A DNA stretch of 64,000 nucleotides from Phycisphaerales bacterium (GTDB lineage: Bacteria > Planctomycetota > Phycisphaerae > Phycisphaerales > SM1A02), in assembly GCA_029245245.1 (NCBI GenBank), contig JAQWPT010000021.1, positions 1-64,000 of the forward strand. The letters are read 5' to 3'. The notes under the pieces were generated by a model, which made no database searches, was not told the origin of the DNA, and saw only the letters and a program-made list of their open reading frames with translations. The number at the start of each line of letters is the position of its first letter. The first letter of the stretch is position 1. Position numbers and translations under genes: made by a program. Positions 873-26,920 of this stretch are shown here, in pieces.

Positions 873-897
873 GATGAGTGGCCTCGAAAACGGTGCC

Positions 898-903
898 AGT
901 ATA
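898..903 (-). promoter_or_regulatory. possible -10 element for the Wzz-like gene
   Basis: TATACT on the minus strand, 25 bases before the start codon at 872. No convincing -35 element was found 17 bases further upstream. Confidence 0.25.
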
Positions 904-983
904 GGTCATGCGCCCATGCCACGCGCTCATGGGACTCGTTCCGGCAGCGTTGGGCGTACGATGCCCGCAGTACAGGCCCGATA

Positions 984-2279: not shown

Positions 2280-2294
2280 GATTTCCAACTGACG

Positions 2295-3632: not shown

Positions 3633-3634
3633 AC

Positions 3635-4567: not shown

Positions 4568-4579
4568 GGACCCGCCTGC

Positions 4580-5701: not shown

Positions 5702-5711
5702 TCCCCCGACC

Positions 5712-7586: not shown

Positions 7587-7596
7587 ACCCCGCGTG

Positions 7597-7602
7597 TACA
7601 CT
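7597..7602 (+). promoter_or_regulatory. possible -10 element with leaderless start (wbpI-type gene)
   Basis: TACACT, 10 bases before the ATG at 7613. No clear -35 element or Shine-Dalgarno sequence. It belongs to a recurring pattern in this window (see findings). Confidence 0.3.
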
Positions 7603-7612
7603 GACCCGAGTC

Positions 7613-8713: not shown

Positions 8714-9963
8714 AGACCTTGCGATGCTGGTGGATCAACCACTACGCGTGCCCTGCAGATGAGCCCGGCGGTACGCGGCACCATGCCCTGGCGTCCCATC
8801 TTGCGGAGCACGGCATCGAGACCACCCTGGTCGCATCGAGTTACCACTACACCAAGCTCGTTGAACGTCTCGAACCCGACGAGATGACGCGAGTCGAGGA
8901 TCGCAACGGGGTGCGTTTCGCATGGCTGCGCACTCGACCCTACACGTCGAACCCGCTTGCCAAGCTGAACAACATGCGATCGTTCGCGTCGCGACTGCTG
9001 CGCGTGGCGGACACGCTGCCCCTGGAGCGCCCGGACGTGATCGTCGGTTCGTCGCCGCATCCGTACGCGGCCGATGCGGGTCGCCGCCTGGCGGCTCGGT
9101 ACGGCATTCCGTTCTGCTGCGAGGTGCGTGACATCTGGCCGGGCTCGCTCGTCGACATCGCCGGAGCGTCACGATGGAATCCCGTCGTCCTGCACATGGG
9201 ACGGCTGGAACGTCGTCTCTATCGATCCGCGGATCGGATTTTCACGCTCCTTCCAGGATCCGAGGGACACATTCACGAGCGGGGTGGCCGGCCCGGTTCC
9301 GTGGTGTGGATTCCGAATGGAATCGATCCCACGCTGCTGCCGCCGGTGTCTCCACCGGTGCAGGGTGGACCGTTCACGCTCGCGTACGCAGGAGCCCACG
9401 GCGTCGCCAACGGGCTCGACGCCGTACTCGATGCCGCCGTGATCCTGCAGCGTGACCACGGCCGTGACGACATCCGGTTTCTGCTCATCGGCGATGGCCC
9501 ATGCAAGCCCGCCCTCGTGCAGCGAGTCGCCGATGAAGGGATCGAGCTTGTCGAGTTCCGCGATCCGGTTCCCAAGTCGGAGATCCACGGGGTACTCCAG
9601 CAGTCGGACGCCTGCCTGATGCCACTCAAGCGGGGAGACGTGTTTCGGCACGGCATCTCGCCCAACAAGATGTTCGACTACCTCGCGGTTGCCAGGCCGG
9701 TCATCTTCTCGGTCGCCACCCCGGTCAACCCCGTGGAGAAGGCGGGAGCTGGATTGACGATCGCCCCGGAGGATCCCGAGGCTCTTGCGCGTGCCGTGCT
9801 CGAACTGTCATCCCTGGATCCCGTGGAACGCGCGGCCATGGGCGATCGGGGTCGAACCTACGTGCTGGAACACCACGATCTGTCCGTGCTGGCGAAACGT
9901 GTTGGCGAGGCCCTGCGCGAGGTTGTCAGCTCCGGAAATGCAGGGAAAGACGGCTCTGGATAG
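8710..9963 (+). CDS. GT4-family glycosyltransferase, WbuB-like
   Basis: A 417-residue GT-B glycosyltransferase starting with GTG that overlaps the epimerase stop by 4 bases, implying translational coupling. The N-terminal segment KTLRCWWINHYACPADEPGG resembles WbuB/WbpJ-like GT4 enzymes. The segments IVGSSPHPYAADAGRRLA and CEVRDIWPGSL sit in the first domain. The donor domain near residues 310-350 has HGISPNKMFDYLAVARPV. It probably transfers an aminosugar or deoxysugar onto the growing lipid-linked unit. The exact donor and linkage are unknown. Confidence 0.8.
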   Translation: MKTLRCWWINHYACPADEPGGTRHHALASHLAEHGIETTLVASSYHYTKLVERLEPDEMTRVEDRNGVRFAWLRTRPYTSNPLAKLNNMRSFASRLLRVADTLPLERPDVIVGSSPHPYAADAGRRLAARYGIPFCCEVRDIWPGSLVDIAGASRWNPVVLHMGRLERRLYRSADRIFTLLPGSEGHIHERGGRPGSVVWIPNGIDPTLLPPVSPPVQGGPFTLAYAGAHGVANGLDAVLDAAVILQRDHGRDDIRFLLIGDGPCKPALVQRVADEGIELVEFRDPVPKSEIHGVLQQSDACLMPLKRGDVFRHGISPNKMFDYLAVARPVIFSVATPVNPVEKAGAGLTIAPEDPEALARAVLELSSLDPVERAAMGDRGRTYVLEHHDLSVLAKRVGEALREVVSSGNAGKDGSG

Positions 9964-10011
9964 ACTTCCCGATCCGCTGAAGCGGCGGAGGCCGAGCCCG
10001 GGGTTCACACC

Positions 10012-11055
10012 ATGATCACGAATCGGAAAATACGCATCGCCGTTCTGGGCACCGGACGAATTGCCGGCAAGCATCTGCACGCCATCGCCGAGCACGGAGA
10101 CGATCTTGAGCTTGTCGCGGTCTGTGATTCGAACGCTGGAGCGATGGATCGCGAGGACATTCCCGGGGAGACGCCGCGGTACGACGATCTCACCACGATG
10201 CTGACGGAAGTCAAGCCGGATCTCGTCACGATCTGCACGCCCAGTGGGGTTCACCCCGCCAACACGATCGCCTGCGCCGAGGCGGGCGTGCACGTGATGG
10301 CTGAGAAGCCCATGGCCACGCACTGGCAGGATGGACTGGACATGGTCAAGGCCTGCGATGAAGCAGGAGTTCGATTGTTCGTCGTCAAGCAGAACCGTCT
10401 CAATGCGACGTTGCAACTGCTCAAGCGTGCGGTCGATGCGGGACGATTCGGTCGCATCCACATGGTGAACCTCAACGTATTCTGGACCCGGCCGCAGGCG
10501 TACTACGACACGGCTCCATGGCGGGGCACCCGCGACATGGACGGCGGAGCGTTCATGAACCAGGCCAGCCACTACATCGATCTGCTTGACTGGTTGATCG
10601 GACCAATCGACCGGATCCACGCGATGATGGACACGCGTGAGCGGGACATCGAGACCGAGGACACGGGAGTGCTCAATGTCCGCTGGAAAAGTGGAACGAT
10701 GGGCAGCATGAATGTCACGATGCTCACGTATCCGAAGAATTACGAGGGGTCGATCACGATCCTCGGCGAACACGGAACCGTCCGCATCGGCGGGGTTGCC
10801 GTCAACGAGATCCAGCACTGGGAGTTCCAGGAAGAGCACGAAGACGATGCAAGGGTCCGTGACGCCAGTTACGAGACGGCTTCCGTGTACGGGTTCGGCC
10901 ACGTGCCGTACTATCGAAACGTCATCGATGCGATGCGAGGCGATGCCGACGCGATGACCGACGGCAACGAGGGACTCAAGAGTCTTGAGGTGCTCATCGC
11001 TTCCTACCGATCGGCCGAGAGCGGCGAGGCCGTCGAACTTCCGTTGCCCCGCTGA
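10012..11055 (+). CDS. wbpB: UDP-GlcNAcA 3-dehydrogenase, WbpB/WlbA type
   Basis: A 347-residue Gfo/Idh/MocA oxidoreductase. A Rossmann motif [13 protein letters not shown] lies at residues 8-20 and the catalytic [11 protein letters not shown] motif at about 98-108. The segments [42 protein letters not shown] and ETEDTGVLN follow WlbA/WbpB closely. The enzyme oxidises C3 of UDP-N-acetylglucosaminuronate, giving the 3-keto sugar that a WbpE-type aminotransferase then aminates. The acetyltransferase gene follows 14 bases downstream, the order seen in Bordetella and Pseudomonas loci. Confidence 0.88.
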
Positions 11056-11069
11056 TCAGGAGTTCCACC

Positions 11070-11654
11070 ATGGCGGACCCGTTCATTCACGACACAGCGA
11101 TCGTCGACGAGGGCGCCACCATCGGTGTCGATTCCCGGATCTGGCACTGGGTGCATGTCTGCGGGGGAGCGGTGATCGGTTGCGGATGCTCACTGGGACA
11201 GAACGTCTTCATCGGCAACCAGGTCTCCATCGGTAACAACGTGAAGATCCAGAACAACGTGTCCGTCTATGACAACGTCGTGCTCGAGGACGACGTGTTC
11301 TGTGGTCCGAGCATGGTGTTCACGAACGTCTACAACCCGAGATCCGCCGTGGTCCGCAAGGACGAATACCGGGACACGCTTGTCCAGCGAGGCGCAACGC
11401 TTGGAGCGAACTGCACCATTGTCTGTGGTGTCACTGTTGGTGCATACTCCTTCGTGGGCGCCGGGGCGGTCGTCAATCGCGACGTTCCCGCTCATGCCCT
11501 GGTCGTCGGCGTCCCCGGCCGGCAGATCGGATGGATGAGTGCGCATGGCGAGCAATTGGACCTTCCGCTGGAAGGTACGGCCCGGTGCACATGTGAACAC
11601 ACGGGTGACGAGTACGTACTCGAGGACGGTGTTCTCGGGCGCAGCGGGTCCTGA
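11070..11654 (+). CDS. wbpD: UDP-GlcNAc3NA N-acetyltransferase, WbpD/WlbB type
   Basis: A 194-residue left-handed beta-helix acyltransferase. Hexapeptide repeats run from about residue 10 to 150, with the family-typical sequences [20 protein letters not shown] and [17 protein letters not shown]. The catalytic His is not assigned. WbpD acetylates the 3-amino group using acetyl-CoA, producing UDP-2,3-diacetamido-2,3-dideoxyglucuronate. A C-terminal extension with two Cys (RCTCEHTG) follows the helix, as in WlbB. It lies 14 bases after wbpB. Confidence 0.88.
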
Positions 11655-11673
11655 GCGATACGGAGCGGGTTGC

Positions 11674-12276
11674 GTGAAGCGTGCATTCGACATCTTCGTG
11701 TCCCTGGTCGCGCTGGTGCTGCTTGCTCCGCTGCTGGTGCTGATCTCTCTGCTCATCCGCCTGAACATGGGCGCACCCGTGTTCTACGTGCAGCAGCGTC
11801 CGGGACTGCACGGGCGACTGTTCCTGATCAGAAAGTTCAGGACCATGCAGACTGGCGAGGGGGATGACGGGCAGCGAATGACCGGACTGGGTCGGCTGCT
11901 TCGTCGAACAAGCCTTGATGAACTGCCAGAGTTGTTCAACGTGGTGATGGGAGACATGAGCCTCGTGGGGCCTCGCCCGCTTCTTCCCCAGTACCTCCCG
12001 CTCTACAGCACGCAACAGGCGCGACGCCACGAGGTGCGGCCGGGCATCACCGGCTGGGCACAGATCAACGGGCGCAACACGATCTCCTGGAATGAGAAGT
12101 TCGAACTGGACGTGTGGTACGTCGATCATCGATCCTTCCTTCTTGATGTCCGGATCCTGTTTTCGACGATCGTGAAGACGGTCACCGTGCAGGGTGTCAG
12201 CCAGGAAGGTCGTGCGACGGTGGACTATTTCACGGGCAACGATTCCGCTCCAACCCGGGAAGGGGATGCGCCGTGA
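11674..12276 (+). CDS. PglC/WcaJ-type initiating phosphosugar transferase
   Basis: A 200-residue polyprenyl-phosphate phosphosugar-1-transferase of the small monotopic (PglC-like) class. A single hydrophobic re-entrant helix lies at residues 5-25. The family motifs RPGLHGRLFLIRKFRTM, TSLDELPELFNV and SLVGPRPLL follow; the Asp-Glu pair in LDELPE is catalytic. It transfers a sugar-1-phosphate onto undecaprenyl phosphate and so starts repeat-unit assembly. I chose the GTG at 11674, preceded by GGAG at spacing 8. The longer frame from 11539 overlaps wbpD in another frame. The stop overlaps the formyltransferase start by 4 bases. Confidence 0.88.
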   Translation: MKRAFDIFVSLVALVLLAPLLVLISLLIRLNMGAPVFYVQQRPGLHGRLFLIRKFRTMQTGEGDDGQRMTGLGRLLRRTSLDELPELFNVVMGDMSLVGPRPLLPQYLPLYSTQQARRHEVRPGITGWAQINGRNTISWNEKFELDVWYVDHRSFLLDVRILFSTIVKTVTVQGVSQEGRATVDYFTGNDSAPTREGDAP

Positions 12277-13025
12277 CGCGGGTTCTGTTCATGGGTCGGC
12301 ATGCCGCGGCGGCCAGTGCGCTGCAATGGGCCCTCGAAGAGGGGTTCGACATCGTCGGGGTGCTGGTCGGCCATGACGACACGGAAGATCCATTGCATGT
12401 TGCTGCCGACAAGGCCGGCTGCCGGATCATGACGATGAATGAGGTGTCCGAAGGGATTCGAAGCGGGTCCCTCTCGTTCGATCTGGGGCTCTCCTTCGTG
12501 TTCCCTCACATCATCGGGGAGCCACTGCTCTCCCATCCTCCCCTTGGAACGATCAACCTGCATCCGGCACCACTACCTGATTTCCGTGGGTGTGGTGGCT
12601 ACAACATCGCCATCCTGGAGGGACTGGACGAGTGGGCGGTCACGGCGCACTACATCGATGCCGGCATCGATACTGGTCCGGTCATCGAGGTCGTCCGCTT
12701 TCCAATCGATCCCGAGCGTGAAACCGTTCGGTCACTCGTGGAAGCCTCTCACGCGAGGATGCTGGACCTGTGCCGATCGGTGATGCAGCGAGTTGGAGCG
12801 TCAGGTCGACTTGAAGCCGACAGAGTGGAAGGTGGCCGCTACATCTCCCGCCAGGAGATGGAACGGCTGAAACAGGTCGCCGAAGGGGATGATGTTGATC
12901 GAAAGATCCGCGCCTTCTGGTATCCACCGCATCCCGGTGCGTGGGCCGAAGTCGATGGCAAGAGGCATGAACTCACCAGTGAGTTCGTGCGAAGCCTGCA
13001 CTCCCGGGACCATGAGCAGCGATAG
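12273..13025 (+). CDS. sugar N-formyltransferase-like protein
   Basis: A 250-residue protein with the formyl-tetrahydrofolate transferase fold. It has the substrate motif NLHPAPLPDFRG near residues 93-104 and the segment YIDAGIDTGPVIE near residues 128-140. The Asn-His-Asp catalytic set of the family appears present. In polysaccharide loci such enzymes (VioF, WbkC, WlaRD types) formylate amino groups of nucleotide sugars using N10-formyl-THF. A GTG start within GTGA couples it to the preceding transferase gene. The length is well short of methionyl-tRNA formyltransferase (about 310), so it is unlikely to be that enzyme. The actual substrate is unknown. Confidence 0.8.
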   Translation: MTRVLFMGRHAAAASALQWALEEGFDIVGVLVGHDDTEDPLHVAADKAGCRIMTMNEVSEGIRSGSLSFDLGLSFVFPHIIGEPLLSHPPLGTINLHPAPLPDFRGCGGYNIAILEGLDEWAVTAHYIDAGIDTGPVIEVVRFPIDPERETVRSLVEASHARMLDLCRSVMQRVGASGRLEADRVEGGRYISRQEMERLKQVAEGDDVDRKIRAFWYPPHPGAWAEVDGKRHELTSEFVRSLHSRDHEQR

Positions 13026-13099
13026 GCCGCCTCGGCATCCGATAATTCACCTCATCGCACGATCTGCATATTGCTTGCGAATCCACCATCCTCTGTAGT

Positions 13100-13105
13100 T
13101 ACAAT
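13100..13105 (+). promoter_or_regulatory. possible -10 element with leaderless start (dehydratase gene)
   Basis: TACAAT, 8 bases before the ATG at 13114. A TTGCGA at 13075-13080 could be a -35 but the spacing of 19 is long. No Shine-Dalgarno sequence is present. Confidence 0.35.
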
Positions 13106-13113
13106 GCCCAGTC

Positions 13114-15102
13114 ATGATCAGCGTGATCGACCAACTTCCTCGGAGTACCAAGCGGGCCATCATGGTCGTGTTCGACCTGTGCGCGATCGTGGTTGCCGTC
13201 TGGGCGTCCTTCGCCCTTCGCATGGGACAGGCTCTGCCCGATCAGCTGGGCTCGCTGTGGTGGGTGCTGCTCGTGATGCCGCTGCTGACGGTGCCGATTC
13301 TCGCTTCGCTGCACCTGTACCGATCGGTCATCCGATACCTCGGCCCCCGGTTCTGCCTCGCTCTCTTCCAGGGGATCACCTTGTCGGCCCTGTGCATGGT
13401 GGGCATCGCCTTCATGAGCCGGGCGGCGATGTTCCCACGGACCGCACCGATCATCTACTGGCTCATGGCGGCACTGCTGATCGGCGGAAGCCGCCTGGTC
13501 ATGCGGTGGTACTTCCGATCCAGGATGCAGACACTGTCGAAACCAGTCATCATTTATGGAGCCGGTGTCGCCGGCGCCAGGCTTGTCTCGGCCATCGTCA
13601 ACAGCCGGGAGTACAACCCCGTGGCCATCGTCGATGACGACCGCGAGCTCTGGAAAAACGACATCCGGGGCGTTCGAGTGCATTCGCCTGCCGACCTTCC
13701 CCACCTGATCAAGGCCCTGGAGGTTTCAGACATCTTCCTGGCCCTGCCGTCGGTCTCCCGCCGACGCCGCTTCGAGATCGTGGAGGAACTTCGCCCCCTG
13801 GAGGTTGGGGTTTCATCCATTCCCGAGCTCGGCGAACTCGTCATGGGTTCAGCTCGGTACGACGAGATCCGGCCTATCCGGATCGAGGACCTGCTGGGCC
13901 GTGACCCGGTTCAGCCTGATGCGTCACTGCTCAGTGCCTGTGCCACCGACAAGTCGGTGATGGTCACTGGGGCAGGGGGCTCCATTGGTTCGGAACTCTG
14001 TCGCCAACTGCTTCGGTTGCGTCCAACGCGCCTCGTGCTGGTGGAGCAGTCCGAATTCGCGTTGTACGAGGTCGAGCAGTCCCTCCGGGCGATCGCCGAG
14101 TCCGATGGACTGGACGTCGAAATCCTTCCACTGCTGGGCAACATCTGCGATCAGGTTCGGATGAAGGAAGTCATCGACATCTTCCAGGTCCAGACGATCT
14201 ACCACGCCGCGGCCTACAAGCATGTCCCCATCGTCGAATACAACATCGTCGAGGGCGTTCGCAACAACACGATCGGAACCTGGCGCATGGCCCAGGCCGC
14301 CATCGAGCAGCGAGTCGAGACCTTTGTTCTCATCTCGACCGACAAGGCGGTTCGCCCGACCAATGCGATGGGTGCGACCAAGCGATTGGCCGAACTCGTG
14401 CTCCAGGGCCTGTCACGCCTCGAGACACCGACCCGCTTCTGCATGGTTCGCTTCGGCAACGTACTGGACTCGTCCGGCTCCGTGGTGCCGCTGTTCCGCG
14501 AACAGATCCAGGCCGGCGGTCCCGTGACGGTGACCCACCCCGAGATCATCCGCTACTTCATGACCATTCCGGAGGCGGCCCAACTGGTGATTCAGGCCGG
14601 TGCGATGGGCGATGGCGGCGACGTCTTCGTTCTTGACATGGGTGAGCCGGTGAAGATCGTCGACCTGGCCCGCACCATGATCCGGCTTGCCGGGCTCTCG
14701 GAAAAGACCGACGAGCATCCCGAGGGCGATATTGCATTGGAGTTCACGGGCCTGCGCCCCGGAGAGAAACTCTACGAGGAACTGCTCATCGGGCAGAACA
14801 CCTCCGGCACCCCGCACCGGCAGATCCTTCGCGCCAGCGAGGACGACCTGCCGTGGGAGGTGATGGAGCCGCTGCTTGCAGACCTGGAATCCGCCTGCCT
14901 GGCGATGGACTGCGACGTGCTTCGTGCCCGGATGCGGACCTTCGTCCATGGCTACAAGCCCGCCGCCGATCTGGTGGATCTGGCTTGGTTGCGACGACGT
15001 GCGCGGGACAACGCGGACACGCTGCAGTTCCCTTCGCCCCAGATCGAGGTCAAGCCCGCAGCATCATTGCTGAAGGCGGATCCGACCGACGCGGTCTCCT
15101 GA
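13114..15102 (+). CDS. UDP-GlcNAc 4,6-dehydratase family membrane protein (WbpM/PglF/CapD)
   Basis: A 662-residue protein with four N-terminal transmembrane segments (about residues 15-125), a CoA-binding-like Rossmann region, and a C-terminal SDR domain. The SDR domain has the NAD motif GAGGSIGSEL near residue 286 and a catalytic segment DKAVRPTNAMGATK near 409-422. In that segment Met replaces the usual Tyr, as in WbpM and PglF. These enzymes make UDP-4-keto-6-deoxy-GlcNAc, the precursor of bacillosamine, QuiNAc or FucNAc. It is anchored at the inner membrane. It faces the wbpE-type gene tail to tail with 15 bases between them. Confidence 0.9.
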   Translation: MISVIDQLPRSTKRAIMVVFDLCAIVVAVWASFALRMGQALPDQLGSLWWVLLVMPLLTVPILASLHLYRSVIRYLGPRFCLALFQGITLSALCMVGIAFMSRAAMFPRTAPIIYWLMAALLIGGSRLVMRWYFRSRMQTLSKPVIIYGAGVAGARLVSAIVNSREYNPVAIVDDDRELWKNDIRGVRVHSPADLPHLIKALEVSDIFLALPSVSRRRRFEIVEELRPLEVGVSSIPELGELVMGSARYDEIRPIRIEDLLGRDPVQPDASLLSACATDKSVMVTGAGGSIGSELCRQLLRLRPTRLVLVEQSEFALYEVEQSLRAIAESDGLDVEILPLLGNICDQVRMKEVIDIFQVQTIYHAAAYKHVPIVEYNIVEGVRNNTIGTWRMAQAAIEQRVETFVLISTDKAVRPTNAMGATKRLAELVLQGLSRLETPTRFCMVRFGNVLDSSGSVVPLFREQIQAGGPVTVTHPEIIRYFMTIPEAAQLVIQAGAMGDGGDVFVLDMGEPVKIVDLARTMIRLAGLSEKTDEHPEGDIALEFTGLRPGEKLYEELLIGQNTSGTPHRQILRASEDDLPWEVMEPLLADLESACLAMDCDVLRARMRTFVHGYKPAADLVDLAWLRRRARDNADTLQFPSPQIEVKPAASLLKADPTDAVS

Positions 15103-15117
15103 CCAGCTTACGTTCAC

Positions 15118-16320
15118 TCAGGCGCCGACCGCGGCACGTTCACCCACCCAGGTGACGATGGTGTCGGCCACATGTTCCAACTGTTCCTGCGTCAGGTCCG
15201 GGTAGATCGGCAGGGCGATCGTTTCCCTGGACGCCAGCAGTGACTCGGGCAGGTCCTCGGGGGCGTACCCGAGGTCGGCGAAGCATTCCTGCATGTGCAG
15301 GGGCACCGGGTAGTAGATTTCGCTTCCGATCTTCCGCTCACCGAGGTGTGCACGAAGTTCATCCCGCATGCCTTCCGGGACCCGGATCACGTACTGGTTG
15401 TAGATGTGTCGGGCCGGCGCCGGATTGGCGTAGGGAGTGCGAAGAGGGAAGCCGCCCTCGGCGATCGGGGTCCGGCTGTCGACGGCCCCGGCGGCGGCAA
15501 ATGCCTTGTCGTAGAAGGCGGCGTTGCGTTGCCGTGCCTCGTGCCAGGACTCGAGGTGATCGAGTTTGACGGACAGGACCGCGGCCTGCAGTGCATCGAG
15601 TCGGGAGTTCACCCCGATCTGCTTGTGGTAGTACTTGGGCTCCATGCCGTGCACGCGGTCGATGCGAAGGCGCTCGGCCACGTCCGGGTCGCTCGTGGAA
15701 CAGAGCCCGGCATCACCGAAGCCGCCGAGGTTCTTGCTCGGGAAGAAACTCCAGGTTCCGACCGCGCCGCGGGTTCCGACCATCTCCCCCTGCGCATCGC
15801 GGGTTCCGATGGCCTGGGCCGCATCTTCGATCACCGGTACGCCGTGCTGTTCGCCCAGGGCCAGGATGGCATCCAGGTCGCAGGCCTGTCCGTAGAGGTG
15901 GACGGGGAGGATGGCCACGAGGTTGTCGCACTGTTCGGCGAGTTCCGCCACGTGCTCGGGGCACATGTTGTAGGTGACCGGGTCGATGTCGGCGTAGACA
16001 GGTGTCAGGCCGAGTCGGGATATGGCGCCACCGGTGGCGAAGAAAGTGTAGGAGGGGCAGATCACCTGGCCGTCGATCTTCGGGACACCGGGCACAACAG
16101 CCATCAGCGCCAGCAGCAGGGCATCGGAGCCGGATGCACATCCCAGGGCATGAGGCGTGTTGCAGTACTGGGCGCACTTGGCTTCGAAGTCCGAGACGGT
16201 CGGGCCGAGAATGAAGTACTGGCTGTCGACGACGGCCTGGATGGCGGCATCGATCTCAGGCTTGAGAGCCTGGTACTGCGGTTTGAGATCGAGAAGCGGG
16301 ACGGTGATGTGATCAGGCAT
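15118..16320 (-). CDS. wbpE: DegT/DnrJ/EryC1 PLP aminotransferase, WbpE type
   Basis: A 400-residue sugar aminotransferase. PLP-site features are VIEDAAQA (Asp166), SFFPSKNLGGFGD with the Schiff-base Lys196, and a downstream GVNSRLDALQAAVL. The start VPLLDLKPQYQALKPEID and SQYFILGP match the WbpE/WlbC branch. WbpE transfers an amino group from glutamate to UDP-3-keto-GlcNAcA. It is the only aminotransferase in the locus, so it might also serve the 4-keto product of the neighbouring dehydratase. It lies on the strand opposite wbpB, wbpD and wbpI, in tandem with the dehydrogenase gene at 16350-17720. Confidence 0.85.
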   Translation of the reverse strand: MPDHITVPLLDLKPQYQALKPEIDAAIQAVVDSQYFILGPTVSDFEAKCAQYCNTPHALGCASGSDALLLALMAVVPGVPKIDGQVICPSYTFFATGGAISRLGLTPVYADIDPVTYNMCPEHVAELAEQCDNLVAILPVHLYGQACDLDAILALGEQHGVPVIEDAAQAIGTRDAQGEMVGTRGAVGTWSFFPSKNLGGFGDAGLCSTSDPDVAERLRIDRVHGMEPKYYHKQIGVNSRLDALQAAVLSVKLDHLESWHEARQRNAAFYDKAFAAAGAVDSRTPIAEGGFPLRTPYANPAPARHIYNQYVIRVPEGMRDELRAHLGERKIGSEIYYPVPLHMQECFADLGYAPEDLPESLLASRETIALPIYPDLTQEQLEHVADTIVTWVGERAAVGA

Positions 16321-16349
16321 GGTGGTGGGCTCGGAGTCGGTGGGAGAAA

Positions 16350-17720
16350 TCAGGCCTTGATGATGGTTGCCACGGGATCGGCCACATCGGCCATGGCGTT
16401 TCGTGTGTCGACGATCAGGGCGGCGCTTCGGCCGACAAGCGGGTAGTCGACGTTCGAGTGATCGGTCACGATCAGCACGCAGTCGCTGGCGGCGAGCGTC
16501 GCTTCATCGAGGGAGACCGAGTTCAGGTCGATGTCGTGTTGACGCATTTCCGGGAAATGCGGGCAATGCGGGTCGTGGTACGCGACTTCGGCTCCCTGCT
16601 GGAGCAGGAGTTCGATGATGGTCGCAGCTGGTGACTCCCGCACGTCTTCGACATCGGGCTTGTAGGCGATGCCCAGGACGAGCACCTTCGAGCCGCGGAT
16701 CGGCCGTCCGATGGTGTTGAGCGCCTCGGCGACCTTGGCGACCACGTGGGCGGGCATCTGCGAGTTGATCTCGCCGGCGAGTTCGATGAAGCGAGTCGTG
16801 TGCCCAAGTTCCCTGGCCTTCCAGGCCAGGTAGAACGGGTCAATGGGAATGCAGTGGCCACCGAGTCCGGGGCCGGGGTAGAAGGCCTGGAAGCCGAATG
16901 GCTTGGTGGCTGCCGCCTCGACGACTTCCCAGATGTCGATGTCCATCTTCTCAAGGATGAGCTTGAGTTCATTGACCAGGGCGATGTTCACTGCCCGGTA
17001 GACGTTCTCGAGGATCTTGGCGGACTCGGCGATCTCGGCCGACGAGACGCGATGGGCATCTTCAACCGCGGCGCCGTAGAGCAGCATTGCGAGGTCGGTA
17101 CTCGTATCGTCGACGCCACCGACGAGTTTCGGAATGGCCTTGGTGGTGACACCCTTGCGACCGGGATCTTCCCGTTCGGGGCTGTACGCCAGGAAGAAGT
17201 CCTGCCCACAGGCCAGGCCCGTCTTTTCGAGGATCGGCTGCATCTCGTTGCGTGTCGTGCCCGGGTAGGTCGTGGATTCAAGAACCACCAACTGGCCGGG
17301 CCGAAGGATGCCGGCGGCCATGCGGGTCGATTCCAGTACGAAGGCCAGGTCCGGCTCCCGGTGCGGTCCCAGTGGAGTCGGTACGCAGAGGATGATCACA
17401 TCAGCGGCTTCCAGGCGTGCCGAATCGCTCGTGGCGGCGAAACGCTTGGAAGCAGCGAGGTCCGTGTGCATGGCTTCGCCGAGGTGGGGAAGGTAGATCT
17501 CGCCGGTGTCGAGTTTGCTGATCTTCCGGTCATCGACATCGAACCCCAGCACCGGGAAGCCGGCTTCGAGCATCGCGTGGGCAAGGGGCATGCCGACATA
17601 TCCCATGCCCACCACGCCAATGGTCGCGCTGCGGTCGGCAAGTCGCTGACGGAGGATTCCCGCCGGGGAAGAGGTCGTACTGGCTTTGGAGGAATCGGCT
17701 GTACTCATGTCATGCTCCAC
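16350..17720 (-). CDS. wbpA: UDP-N-acetylglucosamine 6-dehydrogenase, WbpA type
   Basis: A 456-residue UDP-glucose/GDP-mannose dehydrogenase family protein. The NAD motif GMGYVGMP lies at residues 38-45, and the catalytic Cys290 sits in PGLGGHCIPIDP. The C-terminal UDP-binding domain includes GIAYKPDVEDVRESPA. WbpA oxidises C6 of UDP-GlcNAc to the uronic acid, the first step of the diacetamido-uronate route. UDP-glucose or UDP-ManNAc specificity cannot be excluded from sequence alone, but the companion genes favour UDP-GlcNAc. An internal ATG at 17708 is an alternative start. wbpE follows 29 bases downstream. Confidence 0.85.
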   Translation of the reverse strand: MEHDMSTADSSKASTTSSPAGILRQRLADRSATIGVVGMGYVGMPLAHAMLEAGFPVLGFDVDDRKISKLDTGEIYLPHLGEAMHTDLAASKRFAATSDSARLEAADVIILCVPTPLGPHREPDLAFVLESTRMAAGILRPGQLVVLESTTYPGTTRNEMQPILEKTGLACGQDFFLAYSPEREDPGRKGVTTKAIPKLVGGVDDTSTDLAMLLYGAAVEDAHRVSSAEIAESAKILENVYRAVNIALVNELKLILEKMDIDIWEVVEAAATKPFGFQAFYPGPGLGGHCIPIDPFYLAWKARELGHTTRFIELAGEINSQMPAHVVAKVAEALNTIGRPIRGSKVLVLGIAYKPDVEDVRESPAATIIELLLQQGAEVAYHDPHCPHFPEMRQHDIDLNSVSLDEATLAASDCVLIVTDHSNVDYPLVGRSAALIVDTRNAMADVADPVATIIKA

Positions 17721-19523: not shown

Positions 19524-21743
19524 ATGAATAGCAAGATCAAGAGTGCCAGCATCGTGCTGACCGGTGGTGTCCTGCTTGGCTGGGGATCGTCCGCAGCCTT
19601 GGCAGCCAACATCGTCGGCGTCGGCATGTATGGCAGTAACGGCGACTCCCGCATGTCGAATGATGATGCCTCAGACGCCATCAGTTACGACGAGAACGGC
19701 TACGTCATGATTTCCTACGGCGACAAAGACGGCATTACGCTGGAGAACGATAACAGCAACGGCGAGTTGGTCGCAGTTAATGTCGACTCACAGGGTTCCG
19801 GTTACAAAGCCTCCGAGGAAGCTACCCAGACTGTCGACAACACCGGCAACACCGGCGTTAACGCGACGTGGGACTACGAGGTTGACGGCACCATCGGTGC
19901 TTATCTCCCCGACTACATCGACCTCGACGACAACGCAGCCGGCAACGGAATGTACGGAACGGGCTACATCTCTGATGTTGGTGCTAACAAGACCAACACA
20001 TGGGTTTCCGGCCTGAACTTCCGGAATGACGCTGGCGACGCCGGCCCGGTTTGCGCAGGGACAGTCCCCTCCGCAGGCACCTACGACACATGGGTGGGGG
20101 CGACTTTCTCACCGGGATACGACGTCATAGACACCTGCATTGCATGGGCTGGCGCAACAGCTGATCAGAAGGGTGAGATCTGCGAGATCTTCCTCGACGA
20201 TGGCGGCGTTGGCTACGGCGCTGCTGGCGGAATCTTGGACGTCTACGTCAATGGCGTACTGTCCACCGACTACATCGGCGCCTACACCACTGATGCTGCT
20301 ACCGGTGAAATCCTGACCGCCACCCTGACCAAGAACGACGCACCGGTTGCGGGTTATCCCACCAACTGGGACCAGGTCACCGTAATGCCGAAGGTCTCAA
20401 CCGGCACAGGCCTTGACTACACCATCTATCTCTGGGGTGAGTACGATTTCATCATCAATGCCAACTTTACGGACGGCGACGATTGCACGCAGGTCTCCTT
20501 GACCTCGCATGCACTTGAAGACGTCACGAAGAACAACTGCAGTGACTGTGACATCATCGCAATCATCGATGGTGGCGAGGGTTGTTCGATCACTGCCGGA
20601 CCTATTCCGGTTGGTGCCGTCAAAAACGCAAGCGTCAATAATCCCGGATTCAACTATGACTACGCTCCCGCAGTCGGTATCGATGCTGCAGGCATCACGG
20701 CCGGTTCGGGTGCCACGTTCACTTCAGTCATCGGAGCGTCCAGTTACTACCTGACCTACGAAGACGGCATGCCCCTCGAGTTCGACTATGACGACGAGGT
20801 CTCGCTGTACTGCGGTGCTGACTACAACAACGATGACCACGCGGACATCGTTGCCCACGGCACCGTCGATGGTTACGGCGAAACGATCTGCCTGCTCCTT
20901 GGCAACAATGGCGTCGTCAATGAGGTCGTTCTATACGGCGAATCCGGAACTGACTGGCACATCGCCGGACAGCTCGATCGCGGTGGTGCTGAGTACAACG
21001 ACGGTCACTGCCTGCTCTGGCGGAACAACGCCACTGGTGGAAACGCCGTCTGGGTCTGCAATGGTGACGGCGTCGTTGAGAAGTCTCTCATCGAAGCCGC
21101 TGCTGCCGAGGAATGGTTCTGCTACTGCACGAACGATTCCCTGGGTGGTGGTAGCCGTGCCTACTGGTACAGCCACTACGGCGACAACGCCATGTGGATG
21201 TTGGACATCGACACCGATCACAATGATTGGGTGACCGAGATGGACTACCTCCGCAACGATGTTGGCGAACGCGTCAACACCGGTACTGGTGCTGGTTGGG
21301 AAATGGAAGCCGTTGGTTGCCTCAGTGGCGATCCTGGTGACGACAACCTCAGCCGTGACATCGTCTGGTCCAATGCTGGTACGGGTGCTGTCTGCATCTG
21401 GCTCATGGACCAGGCTGCTCCCGGGTACATCAACTCCCGCAACTACTGCACCGTCGGCGGAAACGTCTATAACGGCGCCAGTGGCTACGGAGTTGCAGAG
21501 GGTTACCGCTGCATCGGTGTCGGCCAGTACGAGGTCGACACAAACTACGGCACAACAACTGCCGGTGGTACCCTCGATCGTGAGCAGATGTGGGGCACCC
21601 TGTGGTGGAACCACAACGGTTCCAGCTACGCCTGGAAGATGGATCGCACCGTCGATCTGGAACTCTATGGCCCAGCTGGAAACACCGGAGGTAATGGCCT
21701 TCCTGTGTATCCCGAGACAGTGAGTGCGTACGCACGCTATTGA
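19524..21743 (+). CDS. secreted FG-GAP-like repeat protein, paralogue 1 (candidate major surface protein)
   Basis: A 739-residue exported protein with a signal peptide ending near residue 28 (SSAALA/AN). After it comes a blade-like element (ISYDENGYVMISYGDKDGI), then a long Asp/Asn/Gly-rich beta region with GSGY elements. Five blade-like repeats follow at about residues 430-705, each resembling W-x-N-x-x-T-G-x-x-A-V-W; the last is followed by WKMDRTV. It is acidic and has 17 Cys, unusual for such repeats and suggesting disulfides. The start is set by AGGAG 6 bases upstream; the frame to 19407 is leader. A consensus promoter and strong terminator flank it. No enzymatic motif is seen; a structural or adhesive surface role is inferred. 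Confidence 0.75.
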   Translation: MNSKIKSASIVLTGGVLLGWGSSAALAANIVGVGMYGSNGDSRMSNDDASDAISYDENGYVMISYGDKDGITLENDNSNGELVAVNVDSQGSGYKASEEATQTVDNTGNTGVNATWDYEVDGTIGAYLPDYIDLDDNAAGNGMYGTGYISDVGANKTNTWVSGLNFRNDAGDAGPVCAGTVPSAGTYDTWVGATFSPGYDVIDTCIAWAGATADQKGEICEIFLDDGGVGYGAAGGILDVYVNGVLSTDYIGAYTTDAATGEILTATLTKNDAPVAGYPTNWDQVTVMPKVSTGTGLDYTIYLWGEYDFIINANFTDGDDCTQVSLTSHALEDVTKNNCSDCDIIAIIDGGEGCSITAGPIPVGAVKNASVNNPGFNYDYAPAVGIDAAGITAGSGATFTSVIGASSYYLTYEDGMPLEFDYDDEVSLYCGADYNNDDHADIVAHGTVDGYGETICLLLGNNGVVNEVVLYGESGTDWHIAGQLDRGGAEYNDGHCLLWRNNATGGNAVWVCNGDGVVEKSLIEAAAAEEWFCYCTNDSLGGGSRAYWYSHYGDNAMWMLDIDTDHNDWVTEMDYLRNDVGERVNTGTGAGWEMEAVGCLSGDPGDDNLSRDIVWSNAGTGAVCIWLMDQAAPGYINSRNYCTVGGNVYNGASGYGVAEGYRCIGVGQYEVDTNYGTTTAGGTLDREQMWGTLWWNHNGSSYAWKMDRTVDLELYGPAGNTGGNGLPVYPETVSAYARY

Positions 21744-21802
21744 TCCGCTCCTGGGTCACGGGTTCGCCCGTCCAGGGTGAATCCAAATGCTCTGTGAATA
21801 CC

Positions 21803-21837
21803 AGCCCCCCGCCTTCTGGCGGGGGGCTGTCTTTTTT
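21803..21837 (+). terminator. strong rho-independent terminator
   Basis: An 11-bp GC-rich stem (AGCCCCCCGCC with GGCGGGGGGCT) and a TTCT loop, followed by a run of six T at 21832-21837. It lies 60 bases after the first secreted-protein gene. Confidence 0.92.
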
Positions 21838-21983
21838 GCCCTGTTCGTACTCCAGTGGAGCCGAAGTCGCTGCCCACTGGCCTCATGGTCGTCTGTGATC
21901 CGATAGTATTTATCAGACCCGCCGGGCGTGAGACCCCGTGGGATTCGAGATGGCCCCCGGATTTCCGGGCACGAGGTGCAGGC

Positions 21984-24341
21984 ATGAGGCAGACGGCAGT
22001 GCAGACTGGCGGAACTGGGCATGGAGCCCATCTGTTCGCTGTCGGTGTTGCCGTGATCTCGATCCTGACCTGCTCCCCGGCTGTCGCCAAGACGCATGTC
22101 CTCGCCGTGGCTGACTTTGGCAATGGTGTGGACACCACTCCCGATGGCTTTGATGACCTGCTCGTGCGTGACAGCGAGACGGGCTCGATCGCCATTCTGT
22201 ATCTCGACGCGGATGGCCTGGACCTGGTCAACCAGCAGGGGCCGGTGACGCACATTGAGATTCTTGACGGGGGGCACGGATACGTCCCGACCTTCGAGAC
22301 CGGCGAGTTCGGGCTCAGCCTTCAGGCGATGTCTGCTCCTGGCCTGTGCCAGGTGCACAACCCGTTCAACAGTCTGTTGCCTGCGGACTGGGCCGCCTAC
22401 CTCGTCGATGGTGAAGAAGGCAGCCTGCTCATCGGGACCCACGGCGAAGAGCAACTGCGATCAATTGATCATGCCCAGGGCGCCCGGACCCGGATCGTCA
22501 TCTCCCATGAAGACGGAGGACTCGGCTACGAGGGTCGGCCCGGCCTGGCGGATGAGCTGCGCTGCCTTGAGTACACGAGTGGTACCCCGATGGCGGCGCC
22601 CGTGACGACCTGGTCGTTGCCCGGAGCCGAAGTCGGCCATGCCGTTGCCATTGCCGCGCCAGGCCGCACCGAAGGCGTGCAATCCTTCTTCACCTGGGTC
22701 GAGATACCCGGAGGGCCTGTCGGCAGTGGGTACACGGCGAATGTCGGCCATCCCGGCCTTGCACTGCAACTCGTCAGCGACGTCGTGCTGCCCGCCCCCG
22801 AGGCAGAAGAGACGGAAGAGGCGGAGGAGACCGAGGTGCCGGTCGAAGCATCCGCCTCAGGCCAGTCAACGGATTCCGATACCGAGGTGGTCTCCACTGA
22901 CGTGCTGGCGGCTCGCGTTCTTGGACAGGTCTTCACCGAGCGAACCGAGGATCTTCACCTTCCCGCAGCCTGGGCGATGACGGATGACCAGGGGCGATTG
23001 ACCCACGTGGCCCTTGATCCGGGGACGTGCCGCTTTGACGCACCGGCAGTCTTCGTAGCCCCACTGACGGCTCGCTGTGACGGGCTCGGGGTCCTGGAAC
23101 TGAAACTGCAGGGACAGATCAACTATGTCGATGTCCCCGGCTCAACGGCTGGTGACGGGTATTCAGAGAACGACGAAGTCCGGATGGGCTTCACGTCCGC
23201 CGGTGGTCATGGCGATTCTCTGCAGGGCACGGGTGGCGTTGCCCCGGCGGCAGAAGTCGCTCGGGGCACCATCATCGAAGCACAGATCAATGGCGAGACC
23301 GGCAGTTACAGCCGACCGCCATGGCTCGATCTCTCCAATGCCGGTGGACTTGGTGCCGACCTGCGGTGCCGATTGGGACACGAAGGCACCGGTCTGATTC
23401 GCTTCAATGGCCAGGATGCCTCCATGGGCGCCAACTGGAAGGCCTACGTGGCGGACTTCGACAACGACGACGACATGGACCTGCTGTGGCATGATCCACG
23501 CAGTGGCCGATCGGCAATCTGGCGGCTTACGACAAACGCCACCGTTGAACAAGGCTCCTTTGGCTGGCTTCCGACGGTGGATCAGAACTGGCGAGTCGGC
23601 GTGGTCGGTGAGTTCGACCCCGGTACGCCCGGGGCGAACATCTTCTGGCGCAACATGCGAACCGGTGCCAACGCGATCTGGGGCGTCGATGCCTCTGGCG
23701 CGTGGTCGAGTTCCTCCTCGTGGCTGCACGAGGCATCAGGCATGGTCGATGCGGTAGCCGATATCGACTGGCAGGTCATCGGGGGCAACCGTGGAGGCAA
23801 TCGCCTGCTCTGGTGGAACCAACGTACAGGGACGTGCGCGGTCTGGAAGTTGTCCGTGGACATGTCCGGTGGAACCGACCCCTCCAGTTGGCTTGAGCAC
23901 GCCAAGTGGCTGACGAACCCACTCGGCGACATCATGGCCACCGATACCCAGTGGAAGCCGATGGGCTTCATGAATCTTGCGGGGCGTGCTCCTTCGAGCA
24001 TCAATGCCCGCGATGTCCTGTGGCTGGATACGGCAAGCGGCACACTGGCGGGCTGGCTGATGGAATCGAACTTTGCCCGCGTCGACGCCAAGGCAGTCGA
24101 TGCAGGGGCCAACTACATCGAGTCGACCTTGCCCGAGGGGGCATCCCCCGGGTCTGTTCGCCTGGTGGCTGGCCAGTACACGCATGGCGCATCCAGTGGC
24201 TCCTGGGCCGGCACGACCCTGTTCTGGCTCGATCAGGCGATTGACGGATCCATGGCCTGGAAACTCAGCCGCTCCCTGGATCCTGATACCGGCCTCCTGA
24301 AGGACCCCTGGGGGGTCATCGATTCCAGGCACGTCCGGTAA
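21984..24341 (+). CDS. secreted FG-GAP-like repeat protein, paralogue 2
   Basis: A 785-residue exported protein with a signal peptide ending near SPAVA/KT. The first mature segment, VLAVADFGNGVDTTPDGFDDLL followed by VRDSETGSIAILYLDADGL, is an FG-GAP-type blade. Next come beta modules with GHGY, GSGY and GDGY elements and a highly acidic Glu/Thr linker (about residues 272-305). Five blades follow at about residues 489-760, such as LLWHDPRSGRSAIWRL, IFWRNMRTGANAIWGV and LLWWNQRTGTCAVWKL. The end MAWKLSRSLD matches the WKMDR and WRMDR endings of its neighbours. The ATG at 21984 has GAGG 7 bases upstream. The ligand and partner are unknown. Confidence 0.75.
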   Translation: MRQTAVQTGGTGHGAHLFAVGVAVISILTCSPAVAKTHVLAVADFGNGVDTTPDGFDDLLVRDSETGSIAILYLDADGLDLVNQQGPVTHIEILDGGHGYVPTFETGEFGLSLQAMSAPGLCQVHNPFNSLLPADWAAYLVDGEEGSLLIGTHGEEQLRSIDHAQGARTRIVISHEDGGLGYEGRPGLADELRCLEYTSGTPMAAPVTTWSLPGAEVGHAVAIAAPGRTEGVQSFFTWVEIPGGPVGSGYTANVGHPGLALQLVSDVVLPAPEAEETEEAEETEVPVEASASGQSTDSDTEVVSTDVLAARVLGQVFTERTEDLHLPAAWAMTDDQGRLTHVALDPGTCRFDAPAVFVAPLTARCDGLGVLELKLQGQINYVDVPGSTAGDGYSENDEVRMGFTSAGGHGDSLQGTGGVAPAAEVARGTIIEAQINGETGSYSRPPWLDLSNAGGLGADLRCRLGHEGTGLIRFNGQDASMGANWKAYVADFDNDDDMDLLWHDPRSGRSAIWRLTTNATVEQGSFGWLPTVDQNWRVGVVGEFDPGTPGANIFWRNMRTGANAIWGVDASGAWSSSSSWLHEASGMVDAVADIDWQVIGGNRGGNRLLWWNQRTGTCAVWKLSVDMSGGTDPSSWLEHAKWLTNPLGDIMATDTQWKPMGFMNLAGRAPSSINARDVLWLDTASGTLAGWLMESNFARVDAKAVDAGANYIESTLPEGASPGSVRLVAGQYTHGASSGSWAGTTLFWLDQAIDGSMAWKLSRSLDPDTGLLKDPWGVIDSRHVR

Positions 24342-24466
24342 GCCCAATTTGGGCCTTGGGCCCTCATTTGTGGAAAAATCATCGAATTCAGCCCGATCTG
24401 AGCATGGTTACAGGCAATTCCAATGGCCTGCACTGCGTTCTTCGAGCACGATGTACCATGAACAAA

Positions 24467-24499
24467 GGGCATTTTTCCCACGTACCAGTGGGGATGCCC
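24467..24499 (+). other. hairpin in the leader of paralogue 3
   Basis: GGGCAT..ATGCCC encloses CCCAC..GTGGG, with a 6-base loop and an internal TTTT bulge, within the 224-base gap between the second and third secreted-protein genes. It is not followed by a T-run, so it is more likely an mRNA leader structure than a terminator. I see no convincing promoter in this gap. Confidence 0.4.
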
Positions 24500-24565
24500 A
24501 AGACGTGGTGGGTATGGGGCTTGCGCTCCCTGCCGAATGACAACTGGCGAGTTAAGGATCCCGGC

Positions 24566-26920
24566 ATGAAGACAATGCGATATGGGTATGGACTGATCGG
24601 CGTGACCGCACTTGCACTGGCAACAGGTGCATGGGCTGAGTCCCGTGTAATCGCTGTCGCTGATTTCGGAACCAGTGCCTCCAACGGCACCCCGGATGGC
24701 TGCACCGACTTGCTCTGGCACGACACGGACACCGGTGAACTCATCATCCACTACATGGCCAAGGATGGGCTCTCTGTCAGCAACATGGTCGGCTCGATCG
24801 ATCAGGTCGAGCTTCGCAACGGCGGCAGTGGGTACTACTCGACGGATTCGCTGGTCATCAACAGTGAAGGCACGGGAGGAATTGGCCTCGAGGCGGAACT
24901 CGAGGTGATTGGACCCATTGCCGAGATCACCGTCGTCGATCCAGGCCGCGACTATGAGAACGGTACGCTTGTCGAACTGGACCCAGGCGCTGCTGGTGGC
25001 GATGGTTGCATCGCCATCACGACGGTCGCCGATGGCGGAGCCGACTCCGGCCAACTTGCCGATGTCGCCGTGCTCTCCTCGGGCTTCGGCTATGAGCCGG
25101 GCACCGTCGATCCGGGTACCGGCATTCTCGAACCTCGTCCTCATCTGCTCGTAGCCTTTCCACCCATCGGTGGTGATCCAGCCTACGTGCTCTGCTACGC
25201 GGATGAAACCGGTCGGATCATGGATGACGCCAGCGGTTTCGGCCCCGGCATCATTGACAACGGATCAGGGTTCATTGGCACCCCGTCTCTTGAGTTCGTC
25301 ATTCCAAGCATCGGCGCCACCGGCGCCGAGTTCCAGGGCTACCTCTACGGGGGGATCAAGTCGGTGCTCGTTGCCGTCAATGGCTCCGGGTACACGTCTG
25401 ATCCGGAGTGGGTGATCCCAGGCGAGAACGGCTTTGGTGCACAGATTGCGACCTCTCGTGGTCCCGGCGCCGTCCACGATGTGAAGGTCACCAGTACCGG
25501 CCGCAACTACGTACTGCCTCCGAGCATTCTCGCCGTGGGCGAAGGCATCGGCGCCTCGTTCGAGGCCATCATCAATGAAGGCGGACCCCAGCCCATCGCC
25601 CGAGCGTCAACCGATCAGGCGATCTACGTCGGCGGTGGTCTCGACGTGGATGCCCATCCCGGCGACTTCGATGGCGATGGTGATACCGATCTCATCTTCC
25701 GTCGTGCCGATCGCGGCGAGGTGTTCCTCTGGATCATGGAGGATGGCGTCAAGCAGGATGGAATTCGTCTTGATGCGATCGTCGGCGCCAACTGGCACCT
25801 GATCGGCATCGGCGACTTCAACTTCGACGGGATCGACGACGTCTACTGGTGGGAGGAAAATGTCGGCCGAATCTGCCTCTGGTACATCAACCATCCAGGC
25901 AGCCCCCTGTTCGCCGCGGACCGTCCGCTGCTCGATTATCGCTGGGGTGGCTGGGTTCCGGATTCGTCCTGGCGTCCCTTCTCGATTCGAGACATTACAC
26001 CTGCCCATGACGGACCCGAGATTCTCTGGGGCAACGTCGATACCGGTTCGGTCGTCATTCGAATGCGGGATCCGGAAAACCCAAAGTTCGTCCAGCACGG
26101 CTTCTACGTGCGTGAACCCGGCGGCGCCCTGCTGAATGCGGGAAGCAGTTGGGAGCCTCGTCACTTCGGGGACTTCGACAGCAACCGATTCGATGGTGAC
26201 ATCTTCTGGTACAACAAGGACGATGGTCGTACTGCGGTCTGGCGCATGCATCTTGGCACGGTCTTCGATCGCAACTACCTCTCCAGCGCTGCGGGAGATG
26301 CCGTGACCTCCTACCACCCGGTGGGCGTGAGCCAGTACCTCGTCGAAGACGATGAGAGCGGCCAGTCCTCGATGCACGCTCACGTGCTCTGGCGACAGGA
26401 CGAGACCTCCCGGGTCGTGAACTGGCGAATGGACCGGTCCTTGACGGCTGCGGCTTTCGGCAACTCCGGAGAAGAGGCCGACGAAGGCCGCGAGGATTCC
26501 AGTGGAGATTCCGAGGACGAGCTGAATACCGGCGTGATCCTTCGGCCCTTCGTGGTTGATCGAGCGGTACTGATGAACGTCGATGGTGTGACGTCCGAGT
26601 TGGACTTCAACACTGCAGGCGGCAACGACTTTGGCAGCAGCGAAGATGACCTCGGCGATTTCGGCGAGGAAGGCGAGGAAGGCAAGGACGAAGGCGACTC
26701 CGATGGGTCATCCGGCGACAGCTTCGACCTCGGTGCATTCGATCCTCTGAACCCGTCCACCTGGCCCGATGGAGTTGAGACGGCCGATGAAATGATCGCC
26801 TGGCTCGGCAACAACATCTTCGCCAATGACCCGACCACCTGGCCGGACGGAGTGGAATCGGAAGCAGAACTGGCCACCTGGTTGATCCAGATGGTGACAC
26901 TTCTGGATTCCATAGGCTAG
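24566..26920 (+). CDS. secreted FG-GAP-like repeat protein, paralogue 3, with acidic tail and WPDGV repeats
   Basis: A 784-residue exported protein whose signal peptide ends near TGAWA/ES. It has the same layout as its neighbours: a first blade (VIAVADFGTSASNGTPDG, LLWHDTDTGELIIHYM), then GSGY beta modules, then five blades at about 365-620. Those blades have calcium-loop-like sequences DFDGDGDTDL and DFNFDGIDDV, ending NWRMDRSL. Unlike the others it continues with about 160 residues: two Asp/Glu/Ser-rich stretches and a tandem PxTWPDGVE repeat at the C terminus. The start at 24566 is set by AAGGA 7 bases upstream. A surface or matrix role is inferred; no catalytic motif is visible. Confidence 0.75.
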   Translation: MKTMRYGYGLIGVTALALATGAWAESRVIAVADFGTSASNGTPDGCTDLLWHDTDTGELIIHYMAKDGLSVSNMVGSIDQVELRNGGSGYYSTDSLVINSEGTGGIGLEAELEVIGPIAEITVVDPGRDYENGTLVELDPGAAGGDGCIAITTVADGGADSGQLADVAVLSSGFGYEPGTVDPGTGILEPRPHLLVAFPPIGGDPAYVLCYADETGRIMDDASGFGPGIIDNGSGFIGTPSLEFVIPSIGATGAEFQGYLYGGIKSVLVAVNGSGYTSDPEWVIPGENGFGAQIATSRGPGAVHDVKVTSTGRNYVLPPSILAVGEGIGASFEAIINEGGPQPIARASTDQAIYVGGGLDVDAHPGDFDGDGDTDLIFRRADRGEVFLWIMEDGVKQDGIRLDAIVGANWHLIGIGDFNFDGIDDVYWWEENVGRICLWYINHPGSPLFAADRPLLDYRWGGWVPDSSWRPFSIRDITPAHDGPEILWGNVDTGSVVIRMRDPENPKFVQHGFYVREPGGALLNAGSSWEPRHFGDFDSNRFDGDIFWYNKDDGRTAVWRMHLGTVFDRNYLSSAAGDAVTSYHPVGVSQYLVEDDESGQSSMHAHVLWRQDETSRVVNWRMDRSLTAAAFGNSGEEADEGREDSSGDSEDELNTGVILRPFVVDRAVLMNVDGVTSELDFNTAGGNDFGSSEDDLGDFGEEGEEGKDEGDSDGSSGDSFDLGAFDPLNPSTWPDGVETADEMIAWLGNNIFANDPTTWPDGVESEAELATWLIQMVTLLDSIG
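26750..26884 (+). repeat. tandem WPDGV protein repeat (26-codon period)
   Basis: Two copies, NPSTWPDGVETADEMIAWL and DPTTWPDGVESEAELATWL, begin at 26750 and 26828 and share 11 of 19 residues. They form the extreme C terminus of paralogue 3 and are absent from paralogues 1 and 2. Confidence 0.8.

Follow-up and report, generated by a model that had tools for sequence, protein, structure and literature searches.

Secreted propellers of the VCBS/FG-GAP_3 type (PF13517; VCBS supercluster, which includes the RGL11 lyases, PMC8023676) are built from several blades behind a signal peptide, with a DxDGDG sequence in loop AB and a glycine and a tryptophan in loop CD. In integrin alpha chains a domain is inserted between FG-GAP propeller blades; the propeller has seven of them, and the insert, of vWA fold, lies between blades 2 and 3 (PMC3192720). 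For secreted proteins encoded beside glycosylation genes, a described case is that of the S-layer glycosylation loci, which carry Wzy_C O-OTases (WsaB/WsfB) and an asparagine-synthase homologue (PMC2943079). GxGY modules are also found in the virion and baseplate proteins of phages (phrog_701, 19630, 2885, 460 and 438), where they are parts of the particle.

The three tandem genes described here lie in a window of 64,000 nucleotides (the whole stretch of DNA that was analysed) from a Phycisphaerales bacterium, and their products are referred to as P0001, P0002 and P0003 (Table 1). As judged from sequence, they probably represent a family of glycosylated or glycan-associated cell-surface proteins, and the main reading, to which a probability of about 0.45 is assigned, is that they are surface propeller glycoproteins on an FG-GAP/VCBS-type scaffold, served by the adjacent glycan locus. 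The three open reading frames reported in a first-pass annotation (739, 785 and 784 residues) were confirmed in position and length, and each product begins with a signal-peptide-like segment ending in A-x-A. Their description there as three tandem paralogues holds for true but distant relatives, the C-terminal halves having 21-27% identity (E 2e-9 to 5e-13); between P0002 and P0003, the N-terminal blade is 40% identical over 83 residues.

Table 1. Positions of the three genes, their parts and flanking features in the window
Feature	Position	Strand	Remarks
Remaining surface-glycan locus	861..15102	+	glycosyltransferases, asparagine synthase, WecB epimerase, oxidoreductase, acetyltransferase, initiating sugar transferase, WbpM-like dehydratase
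DegT/DnrJ aminotransferase (WbpE-like)	15118..16320	-	homologue adjoins family gene in most genera
Nucleotide-sugar dehydrogenase (WbpA/WecC-like)	16350..17720	-
Wzy_C (O-antigen ligase / polymerase / PglL superfamily) membrane protein, directly upstream of P0001	17763..19238	+	PF04932, 3.4e-19
Sigma-70-like promoter 5' of P0001	19274..19302	+	11/12 matches; consensus match alone
P0001 (A/B-type)	19524..21743	+	739 aa, secreted, pI 4.05, 17 Cys, 7% Asn
P0001 N-terminal blade-like segment	19602..19751	+	residues 27-76; alignment to paralogues only
P0001 C-terminal blade region	20793..21659	+	residues 424-712; five blades by alignment
Terminator-like hairpin, strong, between P0001 and P0002	21802..21829	+
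P0002 (A/B-type)	21984..24341	+	785 aa, secreted, pI 4.47
P0002 N-terminal blade	22089..22235	+	residues 36-84; blade HMM
P0002 C-terminal five-blade region	23394..24281	+	residues 471-766; blade HMM, motif
P0003 (C-type; member kept by all family-positive genomes)	24566..26920	+	784 aa, secreted, pI 4.07
P0003 N-terminal blade	24641..24763	+	residues 26-66; blade HMM
P0003 inserted beta-rich region, GxGY modules	24764..25636	+	residues 67-357; GxGY count, PHROG matches
P0003 C-terminal five blades	25637..26434	+	residues 358-623; blade HMM, AF2, FG-GAP_3
C-terminal motif FDPxxPSTWPDGVxTxxExxxWL, two tandem copies	26738..26893	+	P0003, after acidic Ser/Gly/Asp/Glu linker
Terminator-like hairpin, strong, 3' of P0003	26942..26973	+

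Blades were searched for with an HMM trained solely on propellers from other phyla (those of Magnetobacterium and of two MAGs, one of Rhodospirillaceae and one of Chthonomonadaceae), for which the top score among 660 shuffled proteins was 6.0. In P0003 the N-terminal blade was matched at residues 44-65 (18.9 bits) and the C-terminal blades at 365-394 (39.0), 409-442 (26.3), 486-498 (3.4), 528-566 (15.8) and 607-623 (7.9). P0002 gave a match at 54-71 (9.5 bits) and four C-terminal matches, its fifth C-terminal blade being seen by motif. P0001 gave two clear C-terminal matches and no match in its N-terminal blade-like segment, which was recognised by alignment to the paralogues alone. The layout proposed in the first-pass annotation (one N-terminal blade, an insert and five C-terminal blades) therefore appears to be real in outline, firmly established in P0003, well supported in P0002 and, as to the first blade of P0001, dependent on alignment. 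It is also retained in orthologues, the N-terminal blade scoring above every shuffle in 14 of the 19 P0003-type proteins that have their N-terminus. The literal blade motif, described as five repeats in each protein, had only 1, 2 and 0 matches in P0001, P0002 and P0003, respectively; the motif closing the final blade, W-[KR]-[ML]-x-R-[ST], was found in one copy in each. Inspection of the repeats by eye gave six consecutive blades in the Magnetobacterium and Rhodospirillaceae propellers and five anchors in that of Chthonomonadaceae; six blades are usual, not universal, among the relatives in other phyla. Since several of these have six consecutive blades, the total of 1+5 agrees with a six-bladed ring, and the six-bladed propeller that had been proposed stands as to blade number, while closure of the ring by the N-terminal blade is the part that we infer.

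The AF2 model of full-length P0003, made from a shallow alignment of eight rows, had a pLDDT of 49.8, and the folds that it matched, at low TM, were those of propellers. For residues 358-640 (twelve-row alignment) the pLDDT was 76.4 and the pTM 0.75, and the model had five blades, four of them 4-stranded and the fifth 3-stranded. Its fold matches, glutaminyl cyclase, DDB1, Ski8 and PVL, have differing blade numbers and were aligned at TM 0.4-0.5 with an rmsd of about 8.5, so that the model reveals blades, not ring closure.

By Pfam hmmscan, P0002 matched PF07483 (W_rich_C, 26.6 against a cut-off of 26.2) over 33 of 105 positions, corresponding to one blade and not to the full domain. P0003 matched FG-GAP_3 with 28.9 bits in a six-frame search (cut-off 26.9) and 22.8 by hmmscan, and P0001 had no match in Pfam. 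None of the three reached the cut-offs of NCBIfam, a sequence search of the PDB with P0003, its insert and the profile returned only low-complexity or chance matches, and a literature search for this protein family or repeat found nothing. The split arrangement corresponds to no family in Pfam or NCBIfam, which agrees with the first-pass annotation that it is not a named family. The DFDGDGDTD sequence and the W/G spacing of P0003 align with the external propellers and are partly degenerate in P0001 and P0002. The signal peptide, the several blades, the loop AB and loop CD residues and the matches to the blade HMM from other phyla are thus common to these proteins and the VCBS/FG-GAP_3 propellers; here, however, one blade is detached N-terminally, about 300-400 residues are inserted, Pfam scores are weak, and P0003 has a duplicated C-terminal WPDG motif. 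With the integrin alpha chains that contain an I domain, the common plan is a domain inserted between FG-GAP blades, but the propeller here would have six blades, its insert consists of GxGY beta-modules after blade 1, and no vWA (I) domain was matched by Pfam in any of the three proteins. The arrangement appears to be a variant of the VCBS-type propeller not seen before, integrin-like in plan and outside the integrin family. If this is true, bacteria too have an FG-GAP propeller with a domain placed between its blades, on a plan like that of integrins with their ligand-binding inserted domain. Separately, FG-GAP_3 repeats were matched at least 67 times in the window's genome, spread over about a dozen ORFs, which indicates many other secreted propellers.

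Elements of the type G-x-[GDNRE]-[YF] exceeded the shuffled expectation in all three proteins (8 vs 2.3 in P0001, 5 vs 1.1 in P0002 and 8 vs 2.1 in P0003), as expected from the G-x-G-Y elements noted previously. By HMM, the insert of P0003 resembles PHROG phage virion/baseplate proteins (best, phrog_701, 1.1e-10), and that of an orthologue matched phrog_19630 at 3.1e-17; because of this resemblance, the insert is regarded as a known module type in a new setting, within the propeller of a secreted cellular protein instead of a phage particle. Behind a flexible linker, P0003 and its close orthologues carry one or two copies of the C-terminal motif FDPxxPSTWPDGVxTxxELxxWL (duplicated in P0003, single in genera g5 and g23), which was helical at low confidence in the full-length AF2 model. 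A role of this motif as a docking element is a guess. It was also considered as a general sorting signal (PEP-CTERM-like) and rejected, as it occurs genome-wide only in P0003 and order-wide almost only in P0003 orthologues.

A profile built from P0003 and six of its orthologues detected the family in five genera, in 20 of 181 genomes belonging to the same taxonomic family; one further listed genome, the 21st (G242), has a single-blade match only. Outside the taxonomic family, a search of 392 genomes of the phylum gave matches only to single blades or to modules in other proteins. The profile also found six loci in assembled contigs, two of them full-length family members, where P0003 alone as query found nothing, and the family loci with named records belong to marine Phycisphaerales/Phycisphaerae MAGs. 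In the tree, a C-type clade that includes P0003 is represented once per genome in all 20 family-positive genomes. An A/B clade, comprising P0001 and P0002 together with genes one and two of each triplet in genus g16, is limited to the window's genome and g16, which have the three-gene tandem in common; the members hold the same tandem position, and the tree does not pair P0001 and P0002 one to one with the A and B genes of g16. Within the window's genus, one genome (G117) has the C-type only and another (G075) lacks the family. For the family gene of G286 (L067, G286:C9:123295-125748), a single in-frame TAG was reported within the part that matched.

In all five genera the family occupies a fixed slot between a pdh operon, which lies downstream of P0003 in the window, and a variable surface-glycan cluster. 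In the other genera the family gene is followed by DegT, (STT3), metallo-hydrolase and pdh, with RfbA/RfbB or Wzt on the opposite side; WbpA/B/M-like genes and Wzy_C lie near the family gene in genera g1 and g27, and the others have RfbA/RfbB, Wzt or STT3 there. The surface-polysaccharide neighbourhood noticed in the first-pass annotation is seen in every genus of the family but not in every genome, since G018 (genus g5) has no glycan genes adjacent to its family gene. Part of this adjacency may reflect inherited position, all the genomes being of one bacterial family. In the window, the genes at 7556-17720 form a set like a full UDP-ManNAc(3NAc)A pathway (WbpA/B/D/E/I-like and WbpM-like), which presumably resembles the UDP-ManNAc(3NAc)A route of P. 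aeruginosa O5.

STT3 cores were detected in 7 of the 44 genomes tested, that is in 7/20 family-positive and 0/24 family-negative genomes, and order-wide in 5 of 400 genomes, all five family-positive. In six of the seven STT3-bearing genomes the gene lies within a few kb of the family genes (STT3/PglB loci of Phycisphaerales genomes, L046:5736-10318, L049:9826-12378 and L095-L100), G147 having two neighbouring copies, and WWDYG or WWDWG is kept in seven adjacent STT3 genes. The STT3-bearing genomes come from three genera only and so represent few independent events; most family-positive genomes lack STT3, and none was found in the window's genome. This oligosaccharyltransferase link, absent from the first-pass annotation as was the duplicated WPDG motif, is the most interesting result and puts a surface glycoprotein role within reach of testing.

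In the Asn-rich A-paralogues of five STT3-bearing g16 genomes, 73 N-x-S/T sequons were counted against 49.5 expected (z 3.7), and shuffling within 15-residue windows gave z 3.8, with 0/500 shuffles reaching the observed number. The reversed S/T-x-N was below expectation in the same proteins (36 vs 49.6), and housekeeping proteins of the same loci had 28 N-x-S/T against 30 expected. Enrichment was absent from the B- and C-type paralogues, from P0001 of the window (9 vs 7.5) and, despite two STT3 copies, from the family protein of G147. Because of these absences, and because the A-paralogue test was chosen after a per-protein table had shown the enrichment, the result is taken as suggestive. Loci of S-layer glycosylation (PMC2943079) and of PglB/STT3 N-glycosylation have in common with the present ones sugar-nucleotide genes, Wzt, asparagine synthase, and Wzy_C or STT3 by the gene for a secreted protein. 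The pairing of a secreted protein with an OTase-bearing glycosylation locus is seen with STT3 in g16 and G147; the window has only Wzy_C, whose product may be a polymerase, a ligase or an O-OTase, as the domain alone cannot separate them. Unlike S-layer glycoproteins, the family has no SLH domain and belongs to no known S-layer family, no SLH or other known anchoring domain being found in P0001, P0002 and P0003 in Pfam and NCBIfam, and glycosylation of its members is predicted here from sequence.

In the main reading, these secreted proteins would be located on or around the cell surface, with blade 1 separated from blades 2-6 by the inserted GxGY array. If, as is presumed, the N-terminal blade closes a six-bladed ring, the insert would project from one face of it, like the integrin alpha I domain. 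The adjacent locus would make an oligosaccharide for attachment to at least one of these proteins, in STT3-bearing relatives onto Asn of the Asn-rich paralogue and in the window's genome, which is STT3-less, by the Wzy_C protein encoded upstream, if at all. If true, this would point to one defined protein family as candidate acceptor of STT3-type glycosylation in Phycisphaerales, an order in which STT3 was found only alongside that family. That the split propeller is a family-specific acceptor, the slot being kept while the glycan cluster and the class of OTase (STT3-type N-OST or Wzy_C-type by genus) are exchanged, seems doubtful.

The same scaffold might instead belong to unglycosylated, glycan-binding surface adhesins, in which a propeller resembling PVL/tachylectin-type VCBS lectins, together with the GxGY array, tethers the polysaccharide of the locus to the cell. 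VCBS-type blades with a DxDxDG loop and the G and W of loop CD are found in PVL as in integrins, PVL is, weakly, among the fold matches, the genes are associated with a glycan locus, and the family-specific C-terminal motif on its flexible linker could serve docking. The restriction of STT3 to family-positive genomes of the order and the sequon enrichment are, however, left unexplained, and no sugar-binding pocket could be demonstrated; adhesins of this kind are possible, if somewhat unlikely.

The STT3 distribution also weighs against the view that these are ordinary divergent FG-GAP secreted proteins at a conserved spot, with the glycan genes and STT3 beside them only as passengers of a variable region. 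This view would suit a genome so rich in FG-GAP_3 matches, and the pdh and metallo-hydrolase genes, unrelated to glycans, are part of the same conserved block; yet among 400 genomes of the order STT3 accompanies only the family, adjacently in 6/7 STT3-bearing genomes, and DegT persists next door while the remaining glycan cluster varies, which makes this view improbable. Many six-bladed propellers are glycan-active enzymes, and with RGL11 lyases in the VCBS supercluster and a position at a glycan locus, a propeller-based enzyme that modifies polysaccharide (lyase, hydrolase or cyclase) was also considered. It appears very improbable, as no enzyme family was matched in Pfam, NCBIfam or, by sequence, the PDB, and the paralogues, at their low identity, have mainly structural residues in common.

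With a promoter-like site before P0001 and hairpins after P0001 and P0003, P0001 may be transcribed by itself. An Rfam search of the window gave no match. The idea that P0001 is a very highly expressed S-layer protein was unsupported, its codon adaptation being 0.61 against 0.74 for tuf and rpmG (P0002, 0.55). Cys-rich GACC-type C-terminal repeats were observed in some orthologues (G117, G084 and G290; L040:15825-16700 and L049:13797-14000).
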